Shown piece by piece: positions 3,243-56,342 of a DNA stretch of 57,257 nucleotides. Within the stretch, counting starts at the first letter, position 1. Each line of letters starts with the position of its first letter. Under the pieces are notes generated by a model. The model saw only the letters and a program-made list of their open reading frames with translations. It was not told the DNA's origin and did not search any database. The position numbers and the translations under genes are program-made. The stretch is taken from the IMG/VR virus record IMGVR_UViG_3300028806_000013, positions 1 to 57,257 of that record. The stretch is one strand, 5' to 3'. Origin of the DNA: a virus.

Positions 3243-4814
3243 ATGCAATACAAGATTGATACAAAGGCTTTTCATGAAGCTTTTAAAGAGCCTAGAGATA
3301 TATTCTTTAAGACTTGGGTATGTCCTATCCATGGGGCTAGAGATTACTGTAGTCACTATACAGAGGCGTTTGCGGAGTTTAAGTCTAAGTTTATGAAGAA
3401 GTTTATAGAGCCTTATACGCCTCAGCCATTGAAGCCTATTGGCATCCATATTGCTAAGAAGCTAGTAGCACCTGTTGGGTACGAGTATGGATGGAAAACT
3501 GTTTATAGAATAGTAGAGAAGTTCAGAACAGGAACACCAGATTGTGACGTGAACGCTGTTCGTAGAAGGATTGTTGATTTCGAATTCGATAAAGACGCTT
3601 TATTAGGCTTATGCGCTGATGGTTGGATGGCTTTAGGCTATATAGATGAGAGCTATCATATTCCTCGTAACTCTGATGGCTTCTATGCTGATGGAGATGC
3701 TGTTCTCTGTATGCGTATTAAGCATGCGGGTAAGCCTTGGGATAGTGTTAGTGGAACGATAGCTGATAGAGCTGCTAATAATGGTGTAGAAGGGAATCAT
3801 AAGACAGCTGATATAGGAGAAATATATCCATTGGCGCAAGTTGTGCCTGAAGGTTGTCCTACACCTGATGGAACCGCCGATATAGAAAGAGATATTGCTA
3901 ATAACTTTGAAACATTAATAGATGATACGCATTATTCCATGGGGAATAGACATTATAAGATGCCAGCAGAACAGAATGATTTAGGACATTCTCCAGAATT
4001 AGAGAAAGCTGTTGTAGAGGATGCTAAAAAGCATATCGTACCAGGCTGGGAAGATAACGAAGCTAATCGTATCGCTAGAAAGGCTGTAGATAATATGAAT
4101 AGATTAGAGAAGTTGGGATTATCTAAACAAGGCGAGACTGTAGACCCTCGTAATGTAATGCTGACTGAGGATTCTATAGAGCAACTTATAGCTAGCCTTA
4201 GAGAGCCTAGAAAGAGTGCTGGAGAAATAATGGCTGGTCAGATAGCTGATGAGATGTCTAGACAGCTATCCAATCGTAAAACTACAGAAGACGCAGCCGA
4301 TGAGCTATCCCTAATATTCGAAACTGTGACAGCAGACCCTGTTCCTGTCGCGATAGCCACCGAGTTTAAGGGATTCGATTTTGAAAAAATTAATAAGGAT
4401 GAAGATAAAAAATTAAATCATTTAAGATATATAGCATATTTAAAGTCTATCAATAGTAAACAGCGTGAAGGTTTTAGTTTTGATGAAGCTTATGACATGG
4501 CAGGTAAAGATTACCCAGAGTTTCATAGTGAAGACCCTGTTCCTGTAGAAGCTACGACCCCCGAGCCTAAAGCCTATACCTATTCTGGCTGTGATGCCGA
4601 AGTATGGGCACCTATCATGGAGAATATGGAATCTAATATCGCTAAAGCTAATGCGTTAGAGAAAGTAAAAGAAAGCTTTCCTCTCGATGCACTTACACTT
4701 ATAATGGGATATCATTTTGGTAAACATACGGCTGACGAGATGAATGATAAGCGATTAGAGTTTATTGAAAAGTATCGTAGTCTTATAACTGATATGGGAT
4801 ATAGTAGATTTTGA
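3243..4814 (+). CDS. large early protein of unknown function, 523 aa
   Basis: The largest gene of the early operon. The N-terminus has a possible metal-binding cluster (WVCPIHGARDYCSHY) near residues 26-40. The middle is rich in charged helices. Two short DPVPVA/DPVPVEA linkers near residues 360 and 434 separate C-terminal segments, suggesting a multidomain scaffold. There is no Walker motif, polymerase motif or clear nuclease motif that I can see. It begins 3 bases after the AlpA-like gene. A role in takeover or replication is possible but unsupported. Confidence 0.8.
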   Translation: MQYKIDTKAFHEAFKEPRDIFFKTWVCPIHGARDYCSHYTEAFAEFKSKFMKKFIEPYTPQPLKPIGIHIAKKLVAPVGYEYGWKTVYRIVEKFRTGTPDCDVNAVRRRIVDFEFDKDALLGLCADGWMALGYIDESYHIPRNSDGFYADGDAVLCMRIKHAGKPWDSVSGTIADRAANNGVEGNHKTADIGEIYPLAQVVPEGCPTPDGTADIERDIANNFETLIDDTHYSMGNRHYKMPAEQNDLGHSPELEKAVVEDAKKHIVPGWEDNEANRIARKAVDNMNRLEKLGLSKQGETVDPRNVMLTEDSIEQLIASLREPRKSAGEIMAGQIADEMSRQLSNRKTTEDAADELSLIFETVTADPVPVAIATEFKGFDFEKINKDEDKKLNHLRYIAYLKSINSKQREGFSFDEAYDMAGKDYPEFHSEDPVPVEATTPEPKAYTYSGCDAEVWAPIMENMESNIAKANALEKVKESFPLDALTLIMGYHFGKHTADEMNDKRLEFIEKYRSLITDMGYSRF

Positions 4815-11864: not shown

Positions 11865-12451
11865 GATGCTATTTTATCGCCATCTGCTGTTTCAGTCATA
11901 ATATCCTCTGCGCTGGGTGTCGCCCTCTTCAATTCAGCATCTACTTCTTCAGGAGTCATTCCTAGGAACTCAGCAGCTTTCTCTTTCTGAGACTTCATCG
12001 TATCTTCTGCTGTTGTTTCATCTTCAATAGGAGCTGGATTAATAGTATTCATTCCTTGTTCCTCATGGATTGTGTTATAAAGTTTTCTCATCTCGTCAGC
12101 TATTCCACAAAATTCATGAAAATATATAGTATTGCCCGTATCGGCAGCAACCTTTTTAAAGAGTGCGTTACACATAAAACGATTATTATGAGAGGACATC
12201 GCCTCTCTAATGGATTCTGCTGAATTGACCATGACATCAGTAAAGAAATCAACTATCGGCATTCTGTTAGCCGCTTTAACGAGCAATGAATATTTCTGTG
12301 CCAAAGCTTTAAAATCATCTAGAAAGAATTTAGCGGTCTCTAAATCTTCAGGAGTAAAATCTTTTCTAATTTGTTTAATATCAGAAGCAGAAACGGTAAC
12401 CGCTTCTCCTAGTTTCTCTAACATCTCTTTCAACATGTGACCCAAACTCAT
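11861..12451 (-). CDS. hypothetical protein, 196 aa
   Basis: A soluble, mostly helical protein with an acidic Thr/Glu-rich C-terminal third. It contains EFLGMTPEEVDAELKRA, a short UBA-like or HeH-like helical stretch, but this is weak. Overlaps the SPFH gene by 4 bases, so the two may act together. No family recognised. Confidence 0.75.
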   Translation of the reverse strand: MSLGHMLKEMLEKLGEAVTVSASDIKQIRKDFTPEDLETAKFFLDDFKALAQKYSLLVKAANRMPIVDFFTDVMVNSAESIREAMSSHNNRFMCNALFKKVAADTGNTIYFHEFCGIADEMRKLYNTIHEEQGMNTINPAPIEDETTAEDTMKSQKEKAAEFLGMTPEEVDAELKRATPSAEDIMTETADGDKIAS

Positions 12452-13419
12452 TTCTTCGCCTCCTCATCAAATGGTAATTGAAACATAACGCCATTAGAAC
12501 CACCAGCAAACTTTGGCATTTGACCATCCCATTTGTTAACTGATTCCCACTTAATTAATTCATTGCTTAAAGATTTCGTTAAAAGCGCATTTGCCTCTGC
12601 TTTCGCTTTAGCTTCTATTAAAAGACTATCGCCATTACCCTTAGCTGTTAATACCTTAGCATTAGCTTCACCTTGTGCTTTAGCGACCTCTTTCTTGGCT
12701 TGGGCTTCTGTTTCTCTTAATTCATTCTCTCGCTGTTGTGCCTTCTGAGTAGCTTCAATCTTACGATTCAATGCTTCCATGACAATAGCAGGAACTTTAA
12801 ACTGACCCATAATAAATATACTATTTATCTTAAATCCAAGTGGGCTCAAATCATCTTTTACATGGTCTAGGACTAATTTAAAGAATTCCTCTTTCTTCTC
12901 ACCATAGAGTTCTTCAATCTTCATTCTAGAGGATACTCTGTTAATAGCGTCTCTAATATTATTTCTAATAAAGACATCGGTTATTTCTTCAATCCCTCGT
13001 CTATATTTCTGAAACAAGACAGGTATCTTATCAGCATCTAGCTCATAGGATATACCAATATCCGCATGAACCGATAAACCTTCAGAGGTTTGAAAGTTGA
13101 ATCCAGAATCACCTTCCCATACATGATTTTGTTGGAAAGTAGGGAAATGATAAACAGATTGCCACGGCATTAATAGATGCATCCCCACCGGCAACGCTTT
13201 CTCTTCAACGCCTGAGTGCATTCCCATCATGTCTACGACTACGCCAACTTCCCCTGGATAGATTTGAGTAATGCAAGTACTGAAGAATATAATTGCTGAA
13301 AATGCCCACGCACCCGCAGCCGCATGCGTGACAATAGGATTATTTATTTTAAAGTGACTATACGCATACCAAGCAGCGATAGGCATTGCAGTAATAAAAA
13401 GTGCAATCATGAGATACAT
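12448..13419 (-). CDS. SPFH/Band-7 (prohibitin-like) membrane protein, 323 aa
   Basis: Hydrophobic segments at about residues 2-20 and 33-52 anchor the protein. Residues about 55-230 form an SPFH domain, including YPGEVGVVVD, LPVGMHLLMPW, and LFQKYRRGIEEITD followed by NNIRDAINRVSS. Then comes an Ala/Glu/Lys-rich coiled coil (about 230-275), as in prohibitin/HflK-like proteins that form membrane rings and control AAA proteases. Known phage copies are mostly uncharacterised. Modulating host FtsH or HflKC is plausible inference. Confidence 0.88.
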   Translation of the reverse strand: MYLMIALFITAMPIAAWYAYSHFKINNPIVTHAAAGAWAFSAIIFFSTCITQIYPGEVGVVVDMMGMHSGVEEKALPVGMHLLMPWQSVYHFPTFQQNHVWEGDSGFNFQTSEGLSVHADIGISYELDADKIPVLFQKYRRGIEEITDVFIRNNIRDAINRVSSRMKIEELYGEKKEEFFKLVLDHVKDDLSPLGFKINSIFIMGQFKVPAIVMEALNRKIEATQKAQQRENELRETEAQAKKEVAKAQGEANAKVLTAKGNGDSLLIEAKAKAEANALLTKSLSNELIKWESVNKWDGQMPKFAGGSNGVMFQLPFDEEAKK

Positions 13420-47256: not shown

Positions 47257-47706
47257 TTAAAATGGTAATTCATCCGAATCATCTTCTTTAGCAGCTACTT
47301 TCGTTGCTGGCACTTCATTAGCATTAGGGTCTATAAAATCACCCATCTTAGAGCTAACAAATGTTTTCTCAGGTGTTTCGTAGAAGCTGTCTACCAATAT
47401 TCCTCTGCCATTTAGCCCCACTAAATCTTCTATATCAAAACCTTCTGGACGATTCCATTCAGGCTTTTTAACAGCTTTCAAAAGCTTATGCATCTTCCAA
47501 GCCATATTCTTGGTATGTGGGAAATAATCTGTAACGATTCCTTCATCGCCATTCTTATCTCTCACTTGAAATTTAATGGTTGTTTGAGGATTTCTATTCT
47601 TAGAATAGCCCTCAATCGCTTCTTTAACTTTAAAGAAACATTCTCCTTCAGCGCCATGGAAATTACCACTAGATGAACCATCATCGTAATTACTATACTT
47701 TGCCAC
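47257..47706 (-). CDS. DUF669/SSB-like single-strand DNA-binding protein, 149 aa
   Basis: The core with EGECFFKVKEAIEGYSKNRN and TTIKFQVRDKNGDEG resembles phage DUF669-type SSBs, and the last residues DDSDELPF are the acidic tip used by SSBs to recruit partners. It follows and overlaps bet by 14 bases, the usual pairing for phage annealing systems. Confidence 0.85.
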   Translation of the reverse strand: MAKYSNYDDGSSSGNFHGAEGECFFKVKEAIEGYSKNRNPQTTIKFQVRDKNGDEGIVTDYFPHTKNMAWKMHKLLKAVKKPEWNRPEGFDIEDLVGLNGRGILVDSFYETPEKTFVSSKMGDFIDPNANEVPATKVAAKEDDSDELPF

Positions 47707-48469
47707 TTTCTTTCTCCTTTAGCTTGGTTTCAATTCGTTCAATTAATTGCAATGCGATTTCATCGGTGCAATCATGTTTTGCATAATACTGCATAAATTT
47801 AGCGCCATCTTCTTCTGGGATATTCCATAATAAACTTACGAGCTTATTATGTGCTTCTGACGTTTTTGTCTCTACCGCTTTAATCTCACCTGTTTCTTTA
47901 TCAACCTGTTCCACCACCTCTGCATCAATATAATCTTCTTTTCCTTCCATTTCTTCATAGGCTGGTTGAGAACCTGTCATTTCAGGCCAAACCATGCGTA
48001 ATAGCTGAGATTCAGTGGTTTTTGCTATCATGCCATAGGGGTCTTGTGCCCATCTATCATTAGGCATCAAACTTCCGGCACCTTTCTTTGAATAACAGCC
48101 AAGCCATCTAGTTTCATGTGAAAATTCTCTTATCTGACTACCAACAAGTTTGCTGACAGTCATTTGACAATATTCTGGATATTCTGTTTCACCTATCATT
48201 TTAGAAGGCCCATAAATAGGAATGCTTTTACCGACATAAGTGCCACTTCTACTGGCTTGAATTCTGAATAATGTAATGCTTGGCATAATGCTATAAGTTG
48301 AACCAGACTTCCCTTTAAATTCTACAATATGATAAATCTTCAGATGCGGGTCAATCTGCCACATGTTGGCATAATTAACAACCGCTTCTACAAATTGTTT
48401 AGGAATATTCCTATAGATATCAATTAATAATTCCGGGGTGACTTCATACTTTTTGATTTCGTTGCTCAT
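47693..48469 (-). CDS. bet: Bet/RecT-family single-strand annealing protein, 258 aa
   Basis: Start placed at ATG 48469 (MSNEIKKYEV), with GAGG about 9 bases upstream. MPSITLFRIQASRSGTYVG, the YPEYCQMTVSK block and WAQDPYGMIAKTTESQLLRM with WPEM fit the Bet core. The C-terminal third is more variable. Likely anneals ssDNA during phage recombination together with the SSB-like neighbour; the VRR-NUC protein is a possible, distantly encoded nuclease. Confidence 0.88.
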   Translation of the reverse strand: MSNEIKKYEVTPELLIDIYRNIPKQFVEAVVNYANMWQIDPHLKIYHIVEFKGKSGSTYSIMPSITLFRIQASRSGTYVGKSIPIYGPSKMIGETEYPEYCQMTVSKLVGSQIREFSHETRWLGCYSKKGAGSLMPNDRWAQDPYGMIAKTTESQLLRMVWPEMTGSQPAYEEMEGKEDYIDAEVVEQVDKETGEIKAVETKTSEAHNKLVSLLWNIPEEDGAKFMQYYAKHDCTDEIALQLIERIETKLKEKESGKV

Positions 48470-48725
48470 CTTTTCCATCCTCTAGCTCACATTGTTGTTG
48501 TTCATGTTCTAATTGTTGCCATTCATGATTATCTTCTCTTTTATTCCATACTTCAATAGCTAGCTCAGGTTCAATTACTGTTTTCATATTAGCTGGGCAG
48601 TTAGTGCATCTTATTTTATTCAGACATTTTCTACCTTCACCTTCTTTGGTTGTTTTAAAAAAAGCTACATGTCCGCAGAATGGACATTTCTTAAGTTTAT
48701 TACTTATATCTCGATTATCATTCAT
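48444..48725 (-). CDS. lar: Lar-like restriction-alleviation family protein, 93 aa
   Basis: LKKCPFCGHVAFFKTT, CTNC (Cys 40/43) and AIEVWNKRED follow the Lar zinc-ribbon pattern. Lar proteins of lambdoid prophages ease type I restriction. Typical length. First gene of the recombination operon behind a near-consensus promoter. A Gln/Glu-rich tail extends past the domain. Confidence 0.82.
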   Translation of the reverse strand: MNDNRDISNKLKKCPFCGHVAFFKTTKEGEGRKCLNKIRCTNCPANMKTVIEPELAIEVWNKREDNHEWQQLEHEQQQCELEDGKDEQRNQKV

Positions 48726-49915: not shown

Positions 49916-50530
49916 GTGACGTGCGAGATAGATAAAATTGGGATTACCGATGGAATATATCTTCTTTCTGCCATTAGATCATCGTCAAATGAAATTTTAG
50001 AATCTGCGCTTGGCAGCCCTGAGTCAGAAAGAAAAGAAAATTACTATTTGTTACAGAATCATATTAAGAAGTTGATTTCAACGAGTGATGGTAATGAAAT
50101 TATAGGGATAATGGAGGATTTGGCACTTTCTGAGTGTGAAGAATTTCTTTTATTTACCTGCAATTCTTATAAATTTGATTATAAAATAACAGCTCACATA
50201 AAGGATGAGCTCAGAAAACTTATCCCCAAGTTTTCACTCTCTAGGATATTTTCATTCATTTGGGCTGCCGTCAAAAACGCTATCTTATTTTCCTCTCTGA
50301 AAGAATGTAAAAATCAACAACATGCGATGAATACCATTATTTTAAATGTTGTTAAATATTCTCAAAACAAATCTTTCACCAAGGAATTTGAAAGACCAAC
50401 TAAGCTTCCACGAAGCTCTCTTAGCATTGTTATTTATGAAGAAATATTAGGGATTGGTGATTTTGGTTTCTTAAATAACATTTTTAGTATTCCGCTTTCA
50501 TTTTTTGATGAGTTAGGTAGATATGAGTAA
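49916..50530 (+). CDS. replication-region protein of unknown function, 204 aa
   Basis: GTG start with GGGG and ACCTT upstream. A helical, Leu/Ile/Phe-rich protein with a Phe/Trp-rich patch (FSFIWAAVKNAILFSSLK). Its end overlaps the Rep-like gene by 8 bases, so the two are probably made together. I recognise no family. Confidence 0.65.
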   Translation: MTCEIDKIGITDGIYLLSAIRSSSNEILESALGSPESERKENYYLLQNHIKKLISTSDGNEIIGIMEDLALSECEEFLLFTCNSYKFDYKITAHIKDELRKLIPKFSLSRIFSFIWAAVKNAILFSSLKECKNQQHAMNTIILNVVKYSQNKSFTKEFERPTKLPRSSLSIVIYEEILGIGDFGFLNNIFSIPLSFFDELGRYE

Positions 50531-50951
50531 GAAAATGGACAAATATAGGAAGAAGCGCGGAGCTAGTGGCTTTATAAAAATTCCTCACTTTGTTTGCAAC
50601 AGTGAGGAATTTTGTAATCTTTCTGTATTTGCTCTTAAACTTCTTATCGATTTAATGTCTCAGTACAACGGGTTTAACAACGGTTCTCTTACTATTTGCT
50701 GGCAAGTTATGACAAAGAGGGGATGGAAATCCAAAGATACGCTTTACAAAGCTAAGGATGAATTGTTGCTAGGTAGATGGATTGCGATAACAAGAGTAGG
50801 GAATCGAAAGAAGACGTCCCTTTATGCTTTGACGACTTACTCCGTCAACGAGGATTTAAAAAAGGTTTATGACTTTGGAGTTTCGTCTACCGATGCACCC
50901 GCTCATAGTTGGCACAATGGCCTACGTGGTGGCTCGGCAAACTTTGAGTAG
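50523..50951 (+). CDS. Rep-like winged-helix protein, 142 aa
   Basis: GFIKIPHFVCNSEEFCNLSV, ALKLLIDLMSQYNGFNNGSL, TKRGWKSKDTLYKAKDELLL and LYALTTYSVNE follow a helix-turn-helix family found in plasmids, islands and phages near replication or transfer origins. The array of four palindromes starts 18 bases after its stop, which suggests that it binds them. Replication initiation or autoregulation is inferred. Confidence 0.75.
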   Translation: MSKKMDKYRKKRGASGFIKIPHFVCNSEEFCNLSVFALKLLIDLMSQYNGFNNGSLTICWQVMTKRGWKSKDTLYKAKDELLLGRWIAITRVGNRKKTSLYALTTYSVNEDLKKVYDFGVSSTDAPAHSWHNGLRGGSANFE

Positions 50952-50969
50952 ATACTGGTATATATATAC

Positions 50970-51096
50970 GGTACGCCAGGCGGGGCAAATAAATGACGAA
51001 AAGTGGCTATTTGGCCCGCCAGGCGGGCCAAATAAAAACCATTTAGCCCGCCTGGCGGGCTAAATAATATGGATTTAGCCCGCCAGGCGTACCAAT
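50970..51096. repeat. four phased palindromes, candidate origin or operator array
   Basis: Four copies of a GC-rich palindrome of the form ATTT(G/A)GCCCGCC-N-GGCGGGC. Two are perfect 12-bp inverted repeats with one central base: 51009-51033 and 51041-51065. The outer copies, 50970-50990 and 51073-51096, are half-changed and mirror each other (GGTACGCC and GGCGTACC). Centres lie at 50978, 51021, 51053 and 51085, spaced 43, 32 and 32 bp, near whole helical turns. They stand out from AT-rich surroundings. Confidence 0.85.
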
Positions 51097-51266
51097 GAAT
51101 TTTCAAATTTATATTCCCAGTCTTTTTTATACAGTGGTTTTAGAGGATAAAACGGTAGAACAGATAACTAATTTGTCATCGAGCGGACAGGCTTAGAATC
51201 CATCCAATTCTGGACAGGGGGCGTTTATTGATTTCAAACCGATAAATTGTACTGGCAGGATTTAAA
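51097..51266. other. gene-free sequence after the palindromes
   Basis: AT-rich with a GC-richer patch near 51180-51225 (GAGCGGACAGG and TCTGGACAGGGGG). No convincing gene, promoter or repeat seen. Confidence 0.4.
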
Positions 51267-51506
51267 ATGGCTAGAATCGAATTATACGAGGTTTTAGAGA
51301 TATCCCCATTTGTCAAAATCTTAAGGGGGAAAACTCATGCCATACTGTTCATAAAACTAGCAGTATTATTGCTATCAAATCGAATCAATAATGCTTCTGT
51401 TATTTTATCCAGCATGGCATCACTTTCTCCCATTCAGATTTTTCATCACCCAGAAAATGATTATTTTTATAAAAAACCCTATAAAAATAGACCAATCTTT
51501 TTTTAA
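51267..51506 (+). CDS. doubtful protein, 79 aa
   Basis: AGGA stands about 6 bases before the ATG, but the sequence has no recognisable features beyond a hydrophobic middle (AILFIKLAVLLLS) and an aromatic/basic end. It may be a small membrane protein or chance. Confidence 0.3.
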   Translation: MARIELYEVLEISPFVKILRGKTHAILFIKLAVLLLSNRINNASVILSSMASLSPIQIFHHPENDYFYKKPYKNRPIFF

Positions 51507-51524
51507 AACTAGGTAAAATGAACC

Positions 51525-51791
51525 ATGACCAAAAAATCATCCCAAGAACAATTAGCCGACTGGATAGCCTCTATGGAGCATCGCCCCGTCTCCAAGACTG
51601 TCCTGGAAAGAAAGCTGAAAGAGAGTAATCTAACAGAATCAGAGGTACTCAAAGGAATGGACGAGACAGAGAAAAAAGATTTACTCAGTGACCAAATATT
51701 ATTTGACAAATGGATTGAGTGCATTTACAATCATAGACAGAAATCAGCCATGGAGAAATTCCTAAATGCCCGACTCGATTCCGATGGATGA
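51525..51791 (+). CDS. hypothetical protein, 88 aa
   Basis: A charged, helical protein (SQEQLADWIASMEHRP). First clear gene of the right-hand accessory operon. Overlaps a small membrane-peptide frame. Function unknown. Confidence 0.65.
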   Translation: MTKKSSQEQLADWIASMEHRPVSKTVLERKLKESNLTESEVLKGMDETEKKDLLSDQILFDKWIECIYNHRQKSAMEKFLNARLDSDG

Positions 51792-55401: not shown

Positions 55402-55767
55402 ATGAGTATTGAAAACACGATTGGATTACAGGTTTATATAATTGATTTAATGTCGAATGTAAATGGCTTACTAGCGCTTGTTTGTGTAGTTCTTTTTATC
55501 CCTACTATTTTTTTATTTATAACCATCTTGAAAGGAGAAGATAATTTTACATGTAGTGATAACCAAATAGGTAGGTCACTGCTTAGAAAATGCGCTTATG
55601 CTTTTGTCTTTTGTCTTATAGTCGGTATTTTTATCCCTTCCAAATCAACGATGTATTTCATGATGGCTGATGGGATTATTAAAGAAGTGAGAGAGCGAAA
55701 GATACCAGAGAAGGCGTTACAAGTTTTAGATGAGAAGTTAAACGAATATTTAAGGAGCAAGGAATGA
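55402..55767 (+). CDS. two-helix membrane protein, 121 aa
   Basis: Hydrophobic segments at about 22-44 and 66-80 followed by FIPSKSTMYFMMADGIIKEV and a charged helix, a pattern familiar from uncharacterised phage membrane proteins. GGGGTGA lies upstream. Overlaps the ProQ-like gene by 4 bases. Confidence 0.72.
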   Translation: MSIENTIGLQVYIIDLMSNVNGLLALVCVVLFIPTIFLFITILKGEDNFTCSDNQIGRSLLRKCAYAFVFCLIVGIFIPSKSTMYFMMADGIIKEVRERKIPEKALQVLDEKLNEYLRSKE

Positions 55768-56342
55768 TTAAGAAAGTACACACGACCCTACTAATGACCA
55801 CTAACCATTTTGAAAGTGGTCTTATTTATTTAGAGGGCTTAAGAAAGAAATATCCACTATGTTTCTTTACTCCAGGCTATGAGAAGCCATTGAAGAAGGA
55901 TATCTTCCAAGAGCTATTAGCATTATCTAAGTTAGCTGATGAAGAATTATCTATTAGCTTGATACGGTCAGCACTTAGAATCTATACGAGTTCATTATCT
56001 TATAGAGCTGGTATGATTAAAGAGTATTCTCATCGAATCGGATTAGATGGGGAGATTGTATGCCCCGTAACTGCCGAAGAGAGAACGCATGCCAAGTATC
56101 GACCGCTAGAGCTACATTGGAAGTTAAGCGACTCTGATAAGCCTCTGGTGTCCGAATTGAAGGCTAGAGATAAGGAATATAGGCAGAAGAAGTACTTAGC
56201 ATGGAAGAAGAAGTTAGCGGGGGGGTGTGAGGTGAAGTACAGAGAAATGTCTGTTCCTGTTAAATTGGTGAAACGAGTCGAGTTAATGATTCAAAGATTT
56301 GAAGAATCCGGCACGATCCCGAATCCTTGGAACATCGTGTAA
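55764..56342 (+). CDS. ProQ/FinO-domain RNA chaperone, 192 aa
   Basis: Residues about 25-120 follow the ProQ/FinO domain: YPLCFFTPGYEKPLKKDIFQ, an LSISLIRSALRIYTSS helix pair, and IGLDGEIVCPVTAEERTHA. The second half is basic. Such proteins bind structured RNAs and 3' terminator hairpins and control sRNAs. It is the last gene before a strong hairpin terminator. In the phage it may act on the structured leaders or on host RNAs; both are inference. Confidence 0.88.
   Translation: MIKKVHTTLLMTTNHFESGLIYLEGLRKKYPLCFFTPGYEKPLKKDIFQELLALSKLADEELSISLIRSALRIYTSSLSYRAGMIKEYSHRIGLDGEIVCPVTAEERTHAKYRPLELHWKLSDSDKPLVSELKARDKEYRQKKYLAWKKKLAGGCEVKYREMSVPVKLVKRVELMIQRFEESGTIPNPWNIV

Follow-up and report, generated by a model that had tools for sequence, protein, structure and literature searches.

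The window, as the whole 57,257-bp stretch of viral DNA analysed is termed here, contains an array of four palindromes downstream of a gene for a 142-aa protein (Table 1). The palindrome copies start at 50966, 51009, 51041 and 51073, giving centre-to-centre distances of 43, 32 and 32 bp, in the register and at the spacings given by the first-pass annotation of the locus, which also placed the array correctly at 18 bases past the initiator stop codon (50951). All four occurrences of the core motif CGCCWGGCG in the 57,257 bp fall within the array, the motif being absent from the rest of the genome, while shuffles predict 0.11 occurrences. The two inner sites had been described as perfect 12-bp inverted repeats; both are perfect, the arms being 13 bp long at site 2 and 12 bp at site 3. 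The outer arms at 50970-50990 and 51073-51093 are 86% complementary (GGTACGCC on the left, GGCGTACC on the right) and are the mirror-image variants reported earlier, but the proposal that the whole array is one large dyad holds only approximately, because the outer and inner pairs of sites are not concentric, their midpoints lying at 51031.5 and 51037, respectively.

No exact-pattern match to the 23-bp palindrome was found in the viral and genome collections scanned, and the 15-bp core is uninformative as a search pattern, being too frequent in GC-rich DNA. The GC skew tracks gene direction and marks no origin in the window. The gene-poor region downstream of the array (51097-51524) contains a 57-nt inverted repeat (51315-51442) that is 72% complementary and has a 14-nt loop.

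Table 1. Features of the palindrome array and adjoining genes in the window
Feature	Position	Strand	Remarks
204-aa gene, no function assigned	49916..50530	+	Overlaps initiator gene start by 8 bp (ORF table)
142-aa stand-alone winged-helix initiator gene (rep/O-like), predicted	50523..50951	+	PHROG, AlphaFold2, Foldseek
Candidate DNA-unwinding (melting) element GTATATATATACCA	50953..50969	-	Between gene and array; matches the element of relatives
Iteron 1	50966..50990		Centre 50978; outer half is variant GGTACGCC
Iteron 2	51008..51034		Centre 51021; 13-bp arms, perfect
Iteron 3	51041..51065		Centre 51053; 12-bp arms, perfect
Iteron 4	51073..51097		Centre 51085; outer half is variant GGCGTACC
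Second AT-rich flank, 28% GC	51097..51146	+	Poorer look-alike TTTATATTCCCAG

The product of the 204-aa gene has no Pfam match, only weak matches to PHROGs of unknown function, and no relative in viral contigs. The initiator gene is followed by an 88-aa ORF and then a VRR-NUC nuclease gene, with no helicase loader recognised; the next ORF starts at 51525, after a 573-bp gap without a strong gene. Among the window genes scanned, which include the small ORFs only in part, no helicase, primase or polymerase gene was recognised. The record carries no terminal repeats and therefore may be a fragment. Minus-strand genes 2-3 kb from the array (47257-48478) encode a RecT/single-strand annealing protein and a protein resembling SSB, and another gene of the window encodes a ProQ/FinO-family RNA chaperone (55764-56342, Pfam 2e-17). 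A 323-aa membrane protein encoded on the minus strand (12448-13419) matches PHROG 200 'lipoprotein' (1e-73) and is SPFH/prohibitin-like by eye, and a 523-aa protein without a PHROG match (3243-4814) is encoded by one of the largest ORFs of the early region.

The 142-aa protein

The 142-aa protein matches a PHROG of DnaD-like helicase loaders (E 3e-4) and, weakly, O-like initiators, but no Pfam family; its relatives match the PHROG 'replication initiation O-like' with E-values of up to 2e-5. An AlphaFold2 model built with 30 relatives predicts a confident winged helix at about residues 20-100, with pLDDT above 90 across residues 20-90, and a disordered tail thereafter. In Foldseek comparisons the best solved structures are the N-terminal domain of pSK41 RepA, free and DNA-bound (4pql, 5kbj), and that of DnaD, while phage replication initiators and lambda-O N-terminal proteins are among the top-ranking viral models. 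The E-values of these matches are modest (0.005-0.05, probability 0.85-0.98), which places the kinship to initiators at the level of the fold. The hhalign alignment of the family with lambda O alone is colinear (26-125 to 28-123) and not significant, and one relative has an NCBIfam O_Nterm match below the cut-off. As judged from profile matches and the predicted fold, the protein is an initiator-type winged helix, akin to the N-terminal DNA-binding domains of O-like and DnaD-like initiators and of plasmid RepA.

Arrays in homologous loci

Single-sequence searches of viral contigs detected no near relatives of the phage or of its Rep gene, and a profile was needed. Profile searches identified 103 loci with a homologue of the 142-aa protein, some of which are overlapping fetches of one place. 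They belong mostly to Proteobacteria and comprise phage contigs, prophages and islands, plus one plasmid; in the islands and prophages, the neighbouring genes encode integrase, capsid, protease and portal proteins. Arrays were sought at 70 non-redundant homologues for which 250 bp or more of downstream sequence was available, in the region from -220 to +330 around the stop codon, an array being defined by a direct-repeat scan as a 16-bp repeat present in four or more copies; windows of the same size from the same loci served as controls. At least four repeats are present at the 3' end of the gene in 37 of the 70 homologues versus 18 of 479 control windows, and in the other 33 a four-copy array was undetected by this simple scan. 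The repeat sequence varies by lineage, and its consensus has dyad symmetry at p<0.05 (column permutation) in 27 of 31 arrays. The arrays of most relatives begin within the 3' end of the coding region, whereas that of the window lies only after the stop codon. DnaA boxes are not enriched near the arrays.

The homologue in the Pseudomonas phage record vB_Pae_U1 is annotated 'replication protein O', and GGTACAGAAACTGTACC is found four times across the 3' end of its gene. The portion viewed of this 16-kb record (L122, PP003913.1), which has a putative four-palindrome origin of the same kind, resembles an integrated island or satellite and encodes integrase, Cox, an O-like protein, primase and an Rhs protein. 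In a Cupriavidus plasmid, dyads of the form TATRCCCC...GGGGCGTA are located at the 3' end of the homologue gene. At three loci (L157, L146 and L126) the homologue is encoded shortly before capsid genes, accompanied in L157 by prohead protease and portal genes, an arrangement that resembles capsid-forming phage-inducible islands. A Dyella island (L138:4654-7440) carries a MmeI-type restriction-modification enzyme gene immediately downstream of the predicted origin.

Four Pseudomonas loci (L136, L126, L140 and L142) encode initiators that resemble one another closely and have differing iterons (GGTACAG, GAGTCCA, AGTTCGA/ACTTCGA); their recognition helices begin with different residues (GSK, NSR, RSS), which may be read as natural specificity switches. 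A recognition helix starting with S-E accompanies CGTAG half-sites in L125, L195 and L204. Across the family, co-variation between recognition helix and iteron was not significant after removal of overall protein distance (partial r 0.10, p 0.085).

The distances between neighbouring repeats in relatives peak at 22, 32, 43 and 53 bp. A Rayleigh period scan of 108 spacings gave a best period of 10.65 bp with R=0.778, a value reached by none of 5000 jittered sets, all of which stayed at or below 0.32; with each distinct spacing pattern counted once (25 patterns) R is 0.746. Arrays from the control windows are not phased (R=0.03 at 10.5 bp). Relatives have a first interval of about 22, 32 or 42 bp, a second of about 33, 43 or 53 bp and, in two thirds of them, a last of about 44 bp. 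The clustering of the spacings at multiples of 10.65 bp indicates that relatives differ by whole helical turns, and the spacings of 43, 32 and 32 bp in the window deviate from whole turns at this period by at most 0.5 bp, so the helical phasing proposed from the window sequence is statistically confirmed. Within genes, 12 of 26 spacings (e.g. 22, 23 and 32) are indivisible by three, suggesting that these repeats are kept as DNA and not merely as peptide. Of the features that the first-pass annotation had proposed to seek beside this gene family, the number of sites (four) and the whole-turn spacing are kept in relatives and the repeat sequence is not.

The adjoining AT-rich element

Over the first 50 bp past the arrays of relatives the GC content is 9 points lower. 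An element close to CCTTTATATATWTACCAT is located there, past the last site, and is common to loci with quite different iterons. In each of the 20 loci measured, 22-25 bp separate the centre of the last site from the start of the CCA in the element, and a profile built from 24 loci locates the element at the same place in homologues outside the training set, e.g. L145, L169, L191 and L158.

In the window the array has AT-rich DNA on either side. A candidate counterpart of the element is found on the left flank, on the minus strand, where TATATATACCA (50956-50966) is the single occurrence in 57 kb of a sequence expected 0.03 times. Its distance to the centre of iteron 1 is 20 bp, just outside the 22-25 bp of the relatives. 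The profile score of this element is weak (4.1 bits), yet it is the top match within the local 4.1 kb; an ungapped PWM ranks it low (2.1 bits), and the assignment therefore rests on the exact 11-mer, its position and the order of the intervals. In 20 of 30 relatives the interval adjoining the AT element is 42-45 bp long; in the window this interval is 43 bp if the array is read inverted (order 32, 32, 43) and 32 bp otherwise. Given the matching element on the left and minus strand and the 43-bp interval beside it, the origin module of the window is probably inverted relative to the gene, unlike that of all relatives examined, a step taken with moderate confidence. The boundary of the feature should accordingly be moved left to about 50953, taking in the minus-strand GTATATATATACCA.

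Function of the array and comparison with known origins

The array consists of four phased dyad sites, is bordered on one side by an AT-rich element, and adjoins a winged-helix gene of initiator type. This architecture recurs in many relatives: in about 30 other phages, islands and plasmids the homologous gene is likewise followed by four palindromes, unlike in sequence and alike in their whole-turn spacing. The four-palindrome array is predicted, from sequence comparison, to be the replication origin of the phage, with a probability of about 0.86. The annotation that preceded this analysis had offered an origin, a partition site or an operator, and the initiator-family protein together with the conserved number and spacing of sites in relatives strongly favours the first. 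By analogy, the best reading is a lambda-ori-like origin with an initiator reduced to its DNA-binding domain.

Repressors, too, are often winged-helix proteins, and palindromes bound by dimers are typical operators. The 142-aa protein could thus be a repressor acting through the palindromes on its own or downstream genes, without any origin role, and the gap ahead of the ORF at 51525 would suit this. However, the palindromes lie at the gene's 3' end rather than at a promoter, the region has no more promoter-like sites than chance predicts, and most arrays of relatives start inside the coding region. The protein resembles initiator families rather than repressors, and the conserved AT element at a constant distance suits melting, which leaves a pure operator improbable; secondary autoregulation of the initiator gene by an array that serves as origin is possible.

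Still smaller is the likelihood of a partition or packaging site of the parS, parC or pac kind. Helix-turn-helix proteins also bind arrays of palindromes or repeats at partition sites, and TubR appears low in the fold search, but the scanned genes include no recognisable ParA or TubZ partner, the family also occurs in integrated islands and prophages beside integrase and capsid genes, and the terminase genes are 34 kb from the array. It is just as improbable that the palindromes are ordinary terminators or REP-like repeat DNA in which the protein is uninvolved. They can form hairpins, one of which is a terminator-like match on the minus strand (51068-51038), but terminator-like sites are not above chance (3 vs 1.7), the motif is found nowhere else in the genome, and whole-turn spacing across unrelated repeat sequences demands a protein-DNA explanation.

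If the array is an origin, a dimer of the 142-aa protein would bind each palindrome, and the four dimers, placed on one face of the helix, would compact the DNA by bending or wrapping it into a complex like that of lambda O. The strain of the wrapped complex would open the AT element (50953-50969), after which host helicase, primase and polymerase would be recruited; the host replisome is probably used, since none of the window genes scanned is recognisable as a gene for these functions.

The earlier statement that no described phage origin of this layout is known is too strong. The lambda ori contains four imperfect 19-bp inverted-repeat iterons next to an AT-rich stretch (PMC7466680), and pSK41 contains four Rep boxes bound by a related winged helix (PMC5703833). 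Common to the family and to lambda are four imperfect dyad iterons tied to the initiator gene and an AT-rich region adjoining the array on one side, both in the window (50953-50969) and in relatives; the winged-helix/O-like initiator of the family may also share the N-terminal domain of lambda O. Unlike lambda O, the 142-aa initiator lacks the C-terminal P-binding domain and ends in a tail predicted to be disordered, and no P-like partner was recognised. The family spacings correspond to 2-5 turns, in contrast to about 2 in lambda, where the iterons were measured to be 20, 24 and 23 bp apart; the family iterons are at or after the end of the gene, whereas those of lambda are in mid-gene, and they are lineage-specific while the AT element is shared.

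The winged-helix N-terminal domain of the pSK41 RepA_N protein is the top PDB fold match (4pql, 5kbj) and its origin likewise has four boxes (PMC5703833). However, RepA_N proteins have a DnaG-binding C-terminal domain, their boxes are central in rep, and they belong to Firmicute plasmids; the window protein has no Pfam match and its relatives no RepA_N match, so the resemblance is structural. In PICI and PLE satellites the origin is directly 3' of rep (PICI) or close to it (PLE), with iterons by AT-rich DNA (PMC6092414, PMC7145576). Gram-negative PICIs differ in that two sets of iterons flank the AT region and a primase-rep is used, whereas the family described here has a single array, bordered at one end by the AT element; the RepA of PLE is larger and has a C-terminal domain. 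In the rep/oriV of SGI1, rep is immediately followed by AT-rich regions and four GC-rich 17-bp repeats (PMC7433901), but these are direct repeats, with a DnaA box and a RepA_C initiator.

The layout is therefore precedented, with lambda ori and pSK41 as close analogues, while the family, the spacing rule and the shared melting element appear undescribed, no description of them having been found in the open-access literature, to which the search was confined. Members of the family are recognised by homology to the 142-aa protein, at least four whole-turn repeats at the 3' end of the gene, and an AT element whose ACCA is some 23 bp from the last site; the window has all of these, but its AT element is inverted and 20 bp away. 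A broader proposal, with slightly less than even odds, is that these loci represent a widespread and undescribed class of proteobacterial phage and island origins, which would combine an initiator consisting only of a DNA-binding domain, four lineage-specific dyads spaced by whole turns, and a shared, sequence-specific melting element, with the module inverted in the window and no lambda-P-like partner needed to recruit helicase. The free divergence of the iterons while the melting element stays would suggest that a common factor, either a host protein or the initiator acting on single-stranded DNA, reads the element.

A single observation in a metagenomic phage is thus extended to a family-wide rule, which provides tens of initiator genes alongside which the origin is predictable from sequence, clonable and testable. 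Spacing differences of whole turns, despite wholly different repeats, represent rare sequence-level evidence for selection on one-sided stacking of dimers at an origin. The minimal initiator raises the question of how a helicase is loaded without a loader-binding domain, and a shared melting element combined with lineage-specific iterons would suit compatible small replicons.
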